Translations under genes and position numbers: made by a program
In this document: one piece after another, positions 2,799 to 34,197 of the stretch
Position numbering within the stretch: position 1 is the stretch's first letter
How the letters are laid out: each line of letters begins with the position of its first letter
Notes under the pieces: model-generated
What the model was told of the DNA's origin: nothing
Databases searched by the model: none
Seen by the model: the letters and a program-made list of their open reading frames with translations, nothing else
Virus record (IMG/VR): IMGVR_UViG_3300021963_000309
Span: 1-37,939 of that record
Source: a virus
DNA length: 37,939 nucleotides
Strand: one strand, 5' to 3'

Positions 2799-2963
2799 TT
2801 GACTTAGCCTCCTGTTTTGTTGTAGAATTGGTTTGTCGGTTTTGAGTATGAGTCTAGATTAAAGCTTATTATTATATGTGTGATCTAGTTTAAATCTAGA
2901 TGTAATGTGTGATATCTCGACGAGATTATGATGACTTGATGTATACCTCGTCGAGATTATAAG
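2799..2963. promoter_or_regulatory. AT-rich spacer with ATCTCG/ATCTAG palindromes
   Basis: This non-coding stretch contains the perfect palindrome ATCTCGACGAGAT (2914-2926), a second one CTCGTCGAG (2947-2955), several TCTAGA-containing words, and TATAAT on the minus strand at 2871-2876. The same ATCTCG half-site is arrayed at 4174-4300. The two loci bracket a small HTH gene, so these are plausible operator sites. Confidence 0.6.
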
Positions 2964-3338
2964 TTAACGAAGATAAAGATATCCACCAGCCCAATCAGCA
3001 TTCTCCAGAAGCCATTCACGATCTTTAATCAAACGAAGATCATAACGAACACCTTTAGCAGGAGACTTCCAGGATGCAGACTTATAAACTTCACCAGTCT
3101 TCTTATCAATGAAGCAATGTACACTACGTGAACCTGAACCAGTTTCCATCACAATCTTATGATACTTTTTACCAGTTTCTGGATAGAAATTATAACCACC
3201 ATCGCTACCATTATTGCGTTCAATAAAGTTCTGCAGCAATGCTTCACACAGAGCGTAAGTGTGACCCAGAACAGCGAGACCAATATTCTTACGGGCTTCC
3301 TGTTGGGCAGAGTACTCAGCGAAGGTGGTTACTGTCAT
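2964..3338 (-). CDS. Conserved cyanophage-type hypothetical protein (124 aa)
   Basis: ATG 3336-3338, stop 2964-2966. The second half has a compact motif KYHKIVME..SVHCFIDKKTGEVYK..SWKSPAKGVRYDLR. This reads like a small beta domain that I recall as common in cyanomyovirus genomes without a function. Dyad promoter D and a hairpin lie directly upstream. Confidence 0.85.
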   Translation of the reverse strand: MTVTTFAEYSAQQEARKNIGLAVLGHTYALCEALLQNFIERNNGSDGGYNFYPETGKKYHKIVMETGSGSRSVHCFIDKKTGEVYKSASWKSPAKGVRYDLRLIKDREWLLENADWAGGYLYLR

Positions 3339-3362
3339 GGGTTGGTTCCTCAGTACTTTTTA

Positions 3363-3419
3363 AAGATATCACCCCACAGAGCCCATGGGGTGATTGGTGG
3401 ACAGTTATCAGATCGGCAC
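3363..3419 (-). promoter_or_regulatory. Dyad-box promoter D
   Basis: The dyad GTGGACAGTT...ATCGGCAC (3397-3419) lies exactly 28 bp from TATCTT (minus strand, 3363-3368). A TCACCCCA/TGGGGTGA hairpin fills the interval. It serves the gene at 3338. Confidence 0.45.
3369..3393 (-). terminator. 8-bp hairpin after the HTH gene
   Basis: TCACCCCA and TGGGGTGA pair perfectly around a 9-nt loop; ATATCTTTAAAAA follows on the minus strand. It lies just beyond the stop of the HTH gene at 3408 and may terminate it weakly. Confidence 0.45.
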
Positions 3420-3692
3420 AGCAGTCCCAACTCGGATCTGATTCAGACTGTACTGAATATAACCAACTGCTTTGTTTGCATCAAATGCATTTTTCCAGTG
3501 AAAATGCGCCTCAGAGCAATTGTGAATGCCGTAGTAATAATAGCGAACTGCGGTCTTACTCATATCCAATTCCTCTGCAATCTGCTCGGTCGTATACCCT
3601 TCCTTGTACATGTTATTAATTTGTTTGCAGAATTCCTGGGAACGATCAGTTGCTTTGCAGAAACTAATCGGGGCAACGTTTGGATACCTCAT
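3408..3692 (-). CDS. Small helix-turn-helix protein (94 aa)
   Basis: I choose ATG 3690-3692 (MRYPNVAPISFCK), because the longer frame runs through the intergenic dyad. Residues about 22-50 (FCKQINNMYKEGYTTEQIAEELDMSKTAVRYYYYGI) are a classic HTH of the homeodomain-like/resolvase type, with the turn at EELDMS and the recognition helix at KTAVRYYYY. It probably binds DNA. It sits between two non-coding stretches carrying ATCTCG repeats and behind dyad promoter E, so it is the natural candidate for a local regulator of either motif. That link is inference. Confidence 0.85.
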   Translation of the reverse strand: MRYPNVAPISFCKATDRSQEFCKQINNMYKEGYTTEQIAEELDMSKTAVRYYYYGIHNCSEAHFHWKNAFDANKAVGYIQYSLNQIRVGTAVPI

Positions 3693-3719
3693 TGAGGTGC
3701 ATTTGTTGAGTACCTGAGT

Positions 3720-3776
3720 AATATAACCGATCTGGGGGCAGTTGGGTGGATTGGTGGACAGTTCCAGATCCGTCAC
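3720..3776 (-). promoter_or_regulatory. Dyad-box promoter E
   Basis: The dyad GTGGACAGTT...ATCCGTCAC (3754-3776) lies 28 bp from TATATT (minus strand, 3720-3725). Its sequence is very close to promoter D across the whole dyad. It drives the HTH gene. Confidence 0.5.
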
Positions 3777-3867
3777 AATCACTGCCATGCTTTGGTAAAT
3801 GTATACTAAAATACCCTCCCACAAAGAAGTAGAAGGGTATTATAATATTTTTGTTTTAATTAATAAT

Positions 3868-4041
3868 CTACCATCTATCAGGTGCTGATAGATTCTCAAC
3901 ATATGATTTAATAGTTTCTGCTGGTTGAAGATCAAGTGCTTTCTCCCAATCAATTTGATGAGGATTGAAGTCTTCGAGTACGTTAAGCTCTAATGTGATC
4001 CTGTATCGTGTTTTCTGTGTCGATAGGTAAGAGTTGACCAT
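3868..4041 (-). CDS. Small hypothetical protein (57 aa)
   Basis: ATG 4039-4041 with AGGAAAGG 5 nt upstream, stop TAG 3868-3870. The sequence starts MVNSYLSTQKTRYRITLELN and ends APDRW. It has its own strong sigma70-type promoter at 4070-4098. Function unknown. Confidence 0.75.
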   Translation of the reverse strand: MVNSYLSTQKTRYRITLELNVLEDFNPHQIDWEKALDLQPAETIKSYVENLSAPDRW

Positions 4042-4069
4042 AAGAACCTTTCCTGGAAACTATGTGTAT

Positions 4070-4098
4070 AGTATACATGAATCTCGATGCGATGTCAA
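4070..4098 (-). promoter_or_regulatory. Consensus sigma70-type promoter
   Basis: TTGACA (4093-4098), a 17-bp spacer, and TATACT (4070-4075) on the minus strand. It drives the gene at 3868-4041. The spacer itself contains the repeat word CATCGAGATTCA found in the array at 4174-4300, so a protein binding the array would also cover this promoter. Confidence 0.8.
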
Positions 4099-4173
4099 GT
4101 GCGTCTAGATTCATGATGAATTATATATGAATCTAGTATGAAATATTGTGATACTTTATAATGATATCATGAT

Positions 4174-4300
4174 ATCTCGATGTGAATCTCGATGTGAATC
4201 TCGATGTGATCTAGATGTGAATCTCGATATGATTGTATGATGAAATCTCGATGTGAATCTAGTGCGAATCTCGATGTGAATCTAGTGCGAATCTCGATGA
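4174..4300. repeat. Tandem array of ATCTCGATGTGA-type 10-12 mers
   Basis: Ten adjacent units: ATCTCGATGTGA at 4174, 4186, 4198, 4245 and 4268; ATCTAGATGTGA overlapping at 4209; ATCTCGATATGA at 4221; ATCTAGTGCGA at 4257 and 4280; ATCTCGATGA at 4291. Another copy, ATCTCGATGCGA, is at 4081. The spacing of about one helical turn would place each half-site on the same DNA face, as in iterons or multi-site operators. Confidence 0.9.
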
Positions 4301-4395
4301 TATAATACTAGTGTTATATGATTGTATGATGATATCTCGACTAGATTATGATGTTATTGTATAATCTCGAAGAGACTTATATGATATTGCCGCGC

Positions 4396-4408
4396 ATCTC
4401 GTCGAGAT
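4396..4408. promoter_or_regulatory. ATCTCGTCGAGAT palindrome
   Basis: A perfect 13-bp palindrome (ATCTCG-T-CGAGAT) at the end of the array. It matches ATCTCGACGAGAT at 2914-2926 except for the central base. It is a probable full site for a dimeric DNA-binding protein whose half-site is repeated in the array. Confidence 0.6.
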
Positions 4409-4442
4409 TTTTGTGTCCGTCTCCTTATATTTTTCGGGGGTC

Positions 4443-4560
4443 TCTTGACTTTTTTGCGGTTGTGTGATAGCCTGCACGCTTAGATCACAAGGAATCACAA
4501 GGAATCAGAGGATATCAGAGGGTTTAAAGGAATCAAAAACACAAGGAATCAGAGGGTAAT
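4443..4560 (+). promoter_or_regulatory. Plus-strand promoter-like element and CACAAGGAATCA repeats
   Basis: The plus strand has TTGACT at 4445-4450 with TAGCCT 17 bp downstream, a poor -10. The repeated word CACAAGGAATCA follows at 4486, 4496 and 4540, and ATCAGAGG appears several times. No ORF follows on either strand, so an antisense or non-coding transcript is possible but unproven. Confidence 0.3.
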
Positions 4561-19672: not shown

Positions 19673-19730
19673 AGTATATGCTAAAAATAAGATCGTGTCA
19701 ATAAAAAAGGACAGTTTTCAAACTGTCCAC
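19673..19730 (-). promoter_or_regulatory. Consensus promoter with dyad box L
   Basis: TTGACA (19696-19701), 17 bp, TATACT (19673-19678) on the minus strand. The palindrome GGACAGTTTTCAAACTGTCC (19709-19728) lies at the dyad-box position (28 bp from the -10 to the 8-mer ending in GGACAG). It is the only dyad site with a good -35 element and the most perfect dyad. Confidence 0.75.
19703..19728 (-). terminator. Intrinsic terminator formed by the dyad
   Basis: Minus strand GGACAGTTT-GA-AAACTGTCC followed by TTTTTTA. A 9-bp perfect stem and U-tract make it an obvious terminator for the gene at 19755, while the same DNA sits at the promoter-box position for the next gene. Confidence 0.85.
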
Positions 19731-19754
19731 CAATCGCAATTTTTATTTTAAAAT

Positions 19755-20620: not shown

Positions 20621-21106
20621 TTATGTACCTTGTTTTTTAAGAGTAAATGATCCGTCACCTTGATCATTCCATTCCAGAATGTCTCCAGGAGACCAGTTAA
20701 CTTTTTGAAGTAAAGAATCTGGAAATGTAATATAACTGAAAATAGTATTTCCATTAGAATCATATGCTTCTTCCACAGGAAGAATTGTTTTTTCTGATTC
20801 TTCTGCCTGAGTAACTTCTTTAGGTTCTGTCTCTGTGAAATAATGATTTCGAATACTTTCAAGTTCTTGACTCTTCAACTCACGAACTGTATTATTCCAT
20901 GCTCTACGGAATTTTTCATCGTATTCAGTAATAAACCATTCAACCAGAGTCTTTGATGCTGAAGTAAGTGCCTCTGCTCTATCATACTGAGCGTTATCAA
21001 TACATTCAATTGAAGATTCAAGAATTTCCTTTATGTAAGTGATCTTATTGAATGAAACTTCAAGATCATTCATTACTTCCCAAACTTTTTCATAATTAAT
21101 AGTCAT
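20621..21106 (-). CDS. Protein with C-terminal AbrB/MazE-like hairpin domain (161 aa)
   Basis: ATG 21104-21106 (MTINYEKVW); five codons further upstream is an alternative. N-terminal 85 residues are helical. The last 45 residues (IFSYITFPDSLLQKVNWSPGDILEWNDQGDGSFTLKK) match the SpoVT/AbrB swapped-hairpin pattern: strand, LPxxLLxxLxWxxGDxLxW, then GDGSFxLxK. In bacteria this fold binds DNA as a dimer (AbrB, MazE antitoxin). Here it may be DNA- or protein-binding. No toxin partner seen. Confidence 0.85.
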   Translation of the reverse strand: MTINYEKVWEVMNDLEVSFNKITYIKEILESSIECIDNAQYDRAEALTSASKTLVEWFITEYDEKFRRAWNNTVRELKSQELESIRNHYFTETEPKEVTQAEESEKTILPVEEAYDSNGNTIFSYITFPDSLLQKVNWSPGDILEWNDQGDGSFTLKKQGT

Positions 21107-21126
21107 AAGATAATTCTCCAAAAAAA

Positions 21127-32130: not shown

Positions 32131-34197
32131 TTATGCAACAGTGAATGTATTGGATCCTGTAAATGTATGTATAACATAATTAACTCCACCTACTGTTTGA
32201 TATGTTATTGTTCCTCCAACTGCTCTGGCACTATTTCCAATGTATCGAATTACAATTTGACCAGAACCACCAGTAGAACCACCAGTAGTACTTCTCCCAC
32301 GACCACCTCCACCACTATTTGCTGGAGCATTATCTATAGTTGGATTATTTTGTTGATCTCCATTTAGTCCGCGTGTTGCTCCTCCTCCACCACCACCCCA
32401 TCCGAGATAAACAGGAGTTCCACCAGCAAATCCTACTAGATTGTAACCACTTCCACCATTTCCACCAGCATTCGCTGCTCCATCCGCACCAGGACTTCCC
32501 CAACCGCCACCTCCACCTCCTGAGGCTGCAGATCCGGAGCTAAAGGAAACGTCATTACGTCCAGCTCCACCATTATTACCTTGGCCTGGAGTACCATTTC
32601 CTCTAGCGGTTCCATTAAATTTCCAATCTTGTCCACATCCACCACCACCAGAGCCTCCATCTCTTGGAGCAAGGTTAGATCCATTTCCTCCACCGGACGC
32701 AGATATAACGGCAGCCCCTCCAGGTGTTAGTGAATAATATGTACTACTTCCAATCGAAGTCGATGTATCTGAAGCAGCTCCACCAGCACCAACTGTTAGA
32801 TATAATGAACTTCCACTAATTGTAGTTCCGTTTGTAGTTCTTAAACCACCACCTCCTCCTCCACCACTAGCAGAAAACGTAGCACCCAAAGAATCATCTA
32901 TAGCAGAAGGAAAAATCGTTGCAAGTGTTCCACCTCCTCCAGCAACTAACAACATTTCCCAATCCAAAGGAGCTGGTGGTTGCACATAATCAGATGATCC
33001 TCCCTCAGATGAAAGTGCCCCTGTAAATAAAGTTCCAGCACTTACTTGTTTCCAAGTATTTCCTCCAGCAAATGTTGTTACTGGAGTAGACCTATCAATT
33101 GCATCATTAGTTCCAAGTCTTCCTTTACTAGCTCCAAAGAAAGAATTTGTCCCCCATAACCATAATGTTCCATCTGTCTTGATCGCTGCAGTATGGGCAT
33201 ATGCAGAAGAGACTTGTTTCCAGTCGTTTCCTCCAGCAAATGTTGTTACCGGAGTAAGTTTAGTACCACTATCATTAGTCCCAAGTCTTCCGTACACTCC
33301 AGAACCCCAAACCCATAAAGTTCCATCCGTTTTAATTGCTGAATTGTTTGCTCCACCACCACAAGAAACTTGTTTCCAGTTGTTCCCTCCAGCAAATGTT
33401 GTAACTGGAGTAGACCTAGCAACAGAGTCATTCGTTCCTGCATTTGAACCACATGCCCATAAAGTTCCATCAGTTTTGATTGCTATCAAAGAGGAATTTC
33501 CTCCACAAGAAACTTGTTTCCAGTTGTTCCCTCCAGCAAATGTTGTAACTGGAGTAGACTTAGAAATAGAATCATTAGTTCCCAATTGACCATAAGTATT
33601 GTTACCCCATACCCATAAAGTTCCATCGGTTTTGATTGCTGCTACATGACAGTTTCCTGAGGCTCCAAGACTAACTTGTTTCCAGTCATTACCTCCAGCA
33701 AATGTTGTGACTGGAGTTGTTCTAGAATTTCCATCATTAACTCCCATTTCTCCATTAAAGTTATATCCCCAGATCCACAATGTTCCATCATTTTTTATTG
33801 CTGCTGTTCTTCTATCTGTAGTACTTACCTGTTTCCAAGTATTTCCACCAGCAAATGTTGTTACTGGAGTGGATCTATTAAACATAACAGCGCCTGGAAC
33901 ATAATTAAGTCCCAACTGTCCTAGTTGACCAGAACCCCATACCCACAAAGTTCCATCCATTTTAATTGCTGCAGCATGATCATAAGCACAACTCAGTTGT
34001 TTCCAGTTTGATCCACCAGCAAAAGTTGTTATTGGAGTAGATATATCACTAAATGAAACATTATTTCCAAGTGCTCCTGCTCCATTATCTGATCCCCATA
34101 AAAAAAGATCATCATTAATCCATTGGTCAATTAACCAACTTTCGGTTATAAAATAATTTTCTAGGTCTCCTTCTGGAGATAAGAATTCGTTAGGCAT
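32131..34197 (-). CDS. RCC1-propeller/polyglycine tail fibre (688 aa)
   Basis: ATG 34195-34197 with GAGGG about 9 nt upstream. Residues about 35-405 hold seven RCC1-type repeats (TPVTTFAGGNxWKQVS ... AIKxDGTLWxWG), expected to make a seven-bladed propeller. About 430-645 is a Gly-run domain (GGGGGG with variable loops) like the adhesin at 27212, ending GQIVIRYIG and a beta tail. So a propeller is fused to a polyglycine adhesin. Probable distal fibre or tip with carbohydrate-binding role. Contains a perfect 57-bp DNA repeat. Confidence 0.9.
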   Translation of the reverse strand: MPNEFLSPEGDLENYFITESWLIDQWINDDLFLWGSDNGAGALGNNVSFSDISTPITTFAGGSNWKQLSCAYDHAAAIKMDGTLWVWGSGQLGQLGLNYVPGAVMFNRSTPVTTFAGGNTWKQVSTTDRRTAAIKNDGTLWIWGYNFNGEMGVNDGNSRTTPVTTFAGGNDWKQVSLGASGNCHVAAIKTDGTLWVWGNNTYGQLGTNDSISKSTPVTTFAGGNNWKQVSCGGNSSLIAIKTDGTLWACGSNAGTNDSVARSTPVTTFAGGNNWKQVSCGGGANNSAIKTDGTLWVWGSGVYGRLGTNDSGTKLTPVTTFAGGNDWKQVSSAYAHTAAIKTDGTLWLWGTNSFFGASKGRLGTNDAIDRSTPVTTFAGGNTWKQVSAGTLFTGALSSEGGSSDYVQPPAPLDWEMLLVAGGGGTLATIFPSAIDDSLGATFSASGGGGGGGLRTTNGTTISGSSLYLTVGAGGAASDTSTSIGSSTYYSLTPGGAAVISASGGGNGSNLAPRDGGSGGGGCGQDWKFNGTARGNGTPGQGNNGGAGRNDVSFSSGSAASGGGGGGWGSPGADGAANAGGNGGSGYNLVGFAGGTPVYLGWGGGGGGATRGLNGDQQNNPTIDNAPANSGGGGRGRSTTGGSTGGSGQIVIRYIGNSARAVGGTITYQTVGGVNYVIHTFTGSNTFTVA
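33359..33559. repeat. 57-bp identical direct repeats in RCC1 blades
   Basis: The sequences 33359-33415 and 33503-33559 are identical over 57 bp and 144 bp apart (one blade). Other blades are close but mismatched. Exact identity points to recent blade duplication or gene conversion. Confidence 0.9.

Follow-up and report, generated by a model that had tools for sequence, protein, structure and literature searches.

The window analysed here is a 37,939-base IMG/VR fragment of a T4-like cyanophage (Kyanoviridae). Its relatives, at both the DNA and the protein level, are T4-like phages of Synechococcus and Prochlorococcus, and several of its genes were assigned to Kyanoviridae families. The features considered below are the following:

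2854..2957 (no strand): second operator block, with seven ATCTMG/CKAGAT half-sites and palindromes at 2914-2926 (perfect) and 2945-2957 (one mismatch)
2940..2967 (minus): weak promoter-like site TTAACT-16-TATACA, from sequence reading and under the promoter-scan threshold
3408..3692 (minus): small helix-turn-helix (HTH) protein of about 94 aa, with sub-threshold HTH matches
3868..4041 (minus): phrog_12516 gene, 57 aa, the constant neighbour of the conserved element
4070..4098 (minus): predicted sigma70 promoter TTGACA-17-TATACT serving phrog_12516; its spacer has half-site CGAGAT in the conserved register
4174..4300 (no strand): array of direct half-site repeats, spacing mostly 11-12 bp
4334..4346 (no strand): palindrome ATCTCGACTAGAT
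4364..4376 (no strand): degenerate palindrome ATCTCGAAGAGAC
4396..4408 (no strand): perfect palindrome ATCTCGTCGAGAT; the -35 of the conserved element follows about 37 bp downstream
4424..4496 (plus): conserved promoter element (profile model R1, E=1.2e-18; alignment of 42 relatives)
4483..4560 (plus): short direct repeats ATCACAAGGA/AATCAGAGG, within what is presumed to be the noncoding transcript
20621..21121 (minus): 166-aa protein whose C-terminus is an AbrB/MazE-like domain (phrog_661; match at 20630-20800), candidate array binder, with fold evidence from relatives

A first-pass annotation of this DNA had noted perfect ATCTCG-N-CGAGAT palindromes at 2914-2926 and 4396-4408, and both proved exact. 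With up to two mismatches allowed, the window contained eight such palindromes against 0.67 expected, a number reached in none of 100 shuffles, and the near-perfect copies at 2945-2957 and 4334-4346 are additional to those originally noted. The half-site array with a period of about 12 bp was recovered by Tandem Repeats Finder at 4174-4299 as a 12-bp unit, ATCTCGATGTGA, in 10.8 copies. It holds 11 half-sites within 130 bp, compared with a maximum of 4 across 200 Markov simulations, and the spacing, mostly 11-12 bp, is that of tandem direct repeats at helical spacing; 26 of the 40 ATCTMG/CKAGAT half-sites of the window fall within 432 bp. The promoter said to carry the array word in its spacer was likewise present on the minus strand (4098-4070, TTGACA-17-TATACT, 11 of 12 matches, with CATCGAGATTCATG in the spacer), the left half of its spacer palindrome being decayed, and so were the three short ORFs between the two blocks, one of them with an HTH (2964-3338, 3408-3692 and 3868-4041, all on the minus strand). 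The block at 2854..2957 lies upstream of a small minus-strand gene (2649-2798), and the weak promoter-like site within it has the palindrome 2945-2957 in its spacer. For the 57-aa phrog_12516 product, the structure model showed fair per-residue confidence and almost no secondary structure.

The window has repeats of other kinds as well. An intergenic repeat, TTGGTGGACA(G/C)T, found at 581-592, 1543-1554, 3394-3405, 3751-3762 and 19722-19733, adjoins GC-rich hairpins between small genes (nine matches with up to two mismatches versus 3.3 expected), and two related records (L004 and L006) have repeats of other sequence in the same kind of place. There is a perfect 26-bp tandem duplication at 1613-1664 (AAGCGAACGAGGGCTGGGGTAAGCCT), and a 162-bp tandem repeat at 33511-33805 within a large minus-strand gene (32131-34197), the product of which has repeated units of the WVWG.N..GQLG type.

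A search for the array in relatives, as proposed in the first-pass annotation, disclosed clusters of ATCTMG-N-CKAGAT in P-SSM2 (four perfect sites, 66029-66170), in S-BM3 and in genome G001 (eight sites), and the array is also present in P-SSM5. Taking two such palindromes within 38 bp as the criterion, at least 120 IMG/VR stretches carried paired palindromes, versus about 4 estimated by chance; these and the other locus counts from pattern scans refer to the matches listed, and many contigs are fragmentary. In loci with an element-model match, the array was upstream of the element, at 5-136 bp, in 29 of 30 cases and downstream in none of the 30. The position of the array is explained by the conserved plus-strand element at 4424-4496, a landmark that had been missed in the earlier annotation. 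Moreover, 18 distinct phage promoters among the matches listed had the form TTGAC-(palindrome, up to two mismatches)-N5-6-TA...T in one register: the palindrome begins at the last base of TTGACA, and the spacer is 17 bp in 17 of them and 18 bp in one. With 12 shuffled palindromes, no promoter showing the TTGAC-palindrome-TATAAT-type register was found. It is this constancy of register that argues most strongly for an operator. Two to four palindrome clusters were present in 31 of the 120 listed array loci, and secondary clusters resembling the 2854..2957 block were seen in these 31 and in records L007 and L008; the window has two blocks, and S-BM3 and G001 have one cluster only per genome. Since some phages have two to four clusters, the palindrome system resembles a regulon, and looks like a small one. 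A de novo search of Syn9, P-SSM4, S-PM2 and S-SM2 for other palindrome arrays yielded none, a negative result that is weak because, with identical settings, G001 and P-SSM2 were recovered and S-BM3 and the window were missed. The annotated gene PSSM2_098 (P-SSM2 66124-66279, equivalent to L188 5125-5280) falls inside the operator array and is unlikely to be a genuine gene. In agreement with the novelty originally claimed, the open PubMed Central papers searched contain no description of such an array in this group of phages.

The conserved element consists of a -35 box TTGACT (4445-4450), a 17-bp spacer, a -10 box TAGCCT (4468-4473) and a conserved start, GCACGCTTAGATCACAAGG. It points away from the phrog_12516 gene and has no same-strand gene downstream in the window, and a second, divergent promoter is common to the upstream regions of phrog_12516 genes in relatives. 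We infer that this rightward promoter is transcribed as a short noncoding RNA. A 44-nt consensus with three mismatches matched nothing, even in genomes that have the element, and therefore a profile model was built. It matched 14 of 19 records (weakly in RN05-S), with a single copy in 13 of the 14 and one strong plus one weak match in Sf-FS3; the cultured phages carrying the element include S-BM3, S-SM2 and Bellamy. No match was obtained with this model in Syn9, S-PM2, P-SSM2, P-SSM4 and S-RSM4. Beside the array of P-SSM2, near 65.9 kb, there is a diverged element that was recognised by eye and to which the model gives no score; in S-BM3 the element is at about 6.7 kb. In annotated records the element is placed in a noncoding gap, and it opposes the neighbouring genes in S-SM2, S-SCSM2R and Sf-FS3. 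A degenerate pattern of the element, with a near-invariant block TTGACATTTCTGCGAG..TGATAGACTGCTCGCTTAGATCAC, matched at least 80 IMG/VR stretches, and an Rfam search of five loci gave no match. Host derivation of the element was rejected, no match to the degenerate pattern being found in the genomes of 84,980 bacterial species, and a role as a general early promoter is unlikely because the element is single-copy.

The short direct repeats at 4483..4560 occupy the position where many relatives have DnaA boxes. When the 9-mer TTWTCCACA was counted over 60 non-redundant elements, 49 copies were found in 19.3 kb downstream of the element (46 of them oriented along the transcript), 4 in 23 kb upstream and 3 in the remaining 380 kb, and 19 of the 48 elements with enough sequence (about 40% of relatives) had at least one box. 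In cyanobacteria the DnaA box has the sequence TTTTCCACA (PMC4674748). In both complete genomes, S-SM2 and S-BM3, the boxes reach their highest genome-wide density at the element, and S-BM3 combines the element and its boxes with an array. At the elements of the window and G001 no DnaA box was found, and a strict box occurred in just 5 of 27 array loci, the window not among them. Downstream of elements free of DnaA boxes (L045, L049, L083 and similar ones), short direct repeats of other kinds are common, for example AGTAACT..GAAGACACCCCAGATAC, and these are possibly sites for another initiator. The GC-skew flip that the first-pass annotation suggested looking for near the array was not present in the window, nor at the element in S-SM2, S-BM3 or G001. 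The detrended cumulative skew of S-SM2 and S-BM3 had a maximum, not a minimum, 11-15 kb from the element, so the skew is uninformative. As to the two roles initially offered for the array, that of an operator is supported by the recurrence in relatives and by the fixed promoter register. The link to replication is partly supported, because the array is next to an origin-like element, which in relatives comes with DnaA boxes; against it, the window has no DnaA box and no skew flip. It is plausible that the element region is a replication origin.

Two proteins were considered as binders of the array. The local HTH protein belongs to a family found in the window, L003, G001, G005 (72% identical to that of the window), G006 and, more distantly, G004; in G001, G004 and G005 its gene is near the conserved element (L078 5107-5421, L342 and L329), with or without the array. 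Homologues were absent from the array phages S-BM3 and P-SSM2 and from 15 other named phages, and records L007 and L008 yielded no match to the family. The first-pass annotation, which pointed to this protein, had reasoned that loss of the array from relatives keeping the HTH gene would speak against it, and this is what G004, G005 and G006 show: none of them has the array, and G004 and G005 do have the element. The HTH protein might be a dedicated regulator that controls its own gene through the array, as the position of that gene between the two site blocks in the window and near the array in G001 would suggest, but its distribution across relatives led us to reject this explanation, which we consider very unlikely.

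The second protein, phrog_661, is matched by a short form of 58-65 aa, by a 49-aa protein of S-BM3 and by the C-terminus of the 20621-21121 product of the window. The S-BM3 copy matched Pfam MazE_antitoxin above the gathering threshold, 7 of 12 short forms matched it weakly, and a model of the short form (pTM 0.44) had AbrB, MazE and SpoVT proteins as its top seven Foldseek hits, all weak (best E 0.1). Profile and fold matches together place phrog_661 in a predicted AbrB/MazE fold. The S-BM3 protein alone, as AbrB query, missed P-SSM2, which the family profile recovered; the phrog_661 gene of that phage is PSSM2_102. Among the matches listed, the short form was found at 32 of 89 array loci versus 0 of 79 element-only loci. 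Strong phrog_661 matches were present in 9 of 9 array genomes versus 6 of 20 array-free ones (Fisher 7e-4, with related phages treated as independent), and in 2 of 16 element-bearing array-free genomes (Fisher versus the 9 of 9, 2.7e-5, kinship ignored). This co-occurrence is confounded because array phages share ancestry, and phrog_661 was also found in the array-free phages Syn9, S-PM2, P-SSM4, S-RSM4, S-CAM9 and S-8S55. None of 32 short phrog_661 genes had operator sites upstream, and the window gene is 16 kb from the array, embedded in a longer protein. The phrog_661 protein is the most likely candidate binder of the array, ahead of the HTH protein.

We believe, with a probability of about 0.6, that a dimeric phage DNA-binding protein uses the array as a multi-site operator and thereby controls early transcription at a divergent control region conserved in T4-like cyanophages. 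Such a phage-encoded protein, most likely that of phrog_661 rather than the local HTH protein, would occupy the array, which fills the DNA between the leftward and rightward promoters. On the left, the sigma70 promoter, whose -35/-10 spacer contains an operator, would drive the phrog_12516 gene and be blocked by occupancy; on the right, the conserved single-copy sigma70 promoter would give a short noncoding transcript. Further clusters in the same genomes would make up a small regulon, and replication may start in the region of the rightward promoter, with the help of this transcript and, in part of the group, of host DnaA. A wider proposal, namely a conserved single-copy origin of T4-like cyanophages with a noncoding transcript, host DnaA recruited by some of these phages and, on the array, an AbrB-fold phage protein that switches between early expression and origin firing, seems to us rather unlikely.

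Alternatively, the repeats could be origin iterons, on which the bound protein opens AT-rich DNA or loads a helicase, the conserved promoter supplies a primer transcript or R-loop, and transcription control is secondary. This would account for the strict position of the array beside a single-copy noncoding promoter element, and for the DnaA boxes, both as concentrated downstream of the element in relatives and at the elements of S-SM2 and S-BM3 and as combined with an array in the latter. Nevertheless, the skew keeps its sign at the element, strict DnaA boxes are few at array loci, most named phages have the element without the array, and several clusters per genome with operators inside promoters suit control better than an initiator. 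No initiator gene was co-conserved beside the repeats: the HTH gene is not, and phrog_12516, constant at the element, is present also without arrays. We regard iterons as possible, albeit doubtful. That six named phages of the same host genera carry phrog_12516 and the element without any palindrome site argues against binding by a host factor, either a cyanobacterial transcription factor or a nucleoid protein, exploited or titrated by the phage; such a protein would explain a motif common to phages differing in gene content, and phrog_661 is not exclusive to array phages, but we find this unlikely. A centromere or packaging site (parS- or pac-like) would fit the dense single-locus clusters of S-BM3 and G001 and is highly improbable given operators within sigma70 promoters, several clusters per genome and the ORFs around the array, in which no partition gene was noticed.

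According to a review of the T4-like cyanophages, the mechanism of early and middle transcription is unresolved, motA and asiA being absent, and a single theta origin is reported there only as a prediction, for Syn9 (PMC2984593), a phage where the element model finds nothing. What the present locus contributes is a concrete operator code, recognisable by its constant register within promoters, together with a candidate regulator and a noncoding promoter element that is single-copy and, in many relatives, accompanied by DnaA boxes. Since cultured phages carry parts of it (P-SSM2, P-SSM5 and S-BM3 the array; S-BM3, S-SM2 and Bellamy the element), both control and origin are directly testable. 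Among known systems, MraZ binds a series of direct repeats at a promoter in Mollicutes (PMC8475190). The candidate binder shares the fold of the AbrB/MazE/MraZ autoregulators, and the cyanophage sites are palindromes plus direct half-site repeats; on the other hand, no toxin gene has been connected with phrog_661 and no sites were found at its own gene. Like the iteron origins of plasmids and phages, the array has short direct repeats beside a promoter, spaced at roughly one helical turn; it differs from them in that no Rep initiator was identified, in that its half-sites also form palindromes inside promoters and in the several clusters per genome. As in T4 oriF and oriG, the presumed noncoding transcript of the element promoter runs into repeats, and as in bacterial oriC there are cyanobacterial DnaA boxes in about 40% of element relatives; T4, in contrast to these relatives, is not known to use DnaA boxes. 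The stoperators of mycobacteriophage L5 are reportedly dispersed multi-site phage operators. The cyanophage sites differ from them in being symmetric, densely clustered and strictly beside one noncoding promoter in a lytic T4-like group, with a regulator that is only a candidate, and share with them, as these are reported, many near-identical sites of about 13 bp at several promoters or intergenic positions, some overlapping -35 or -10 boxes.
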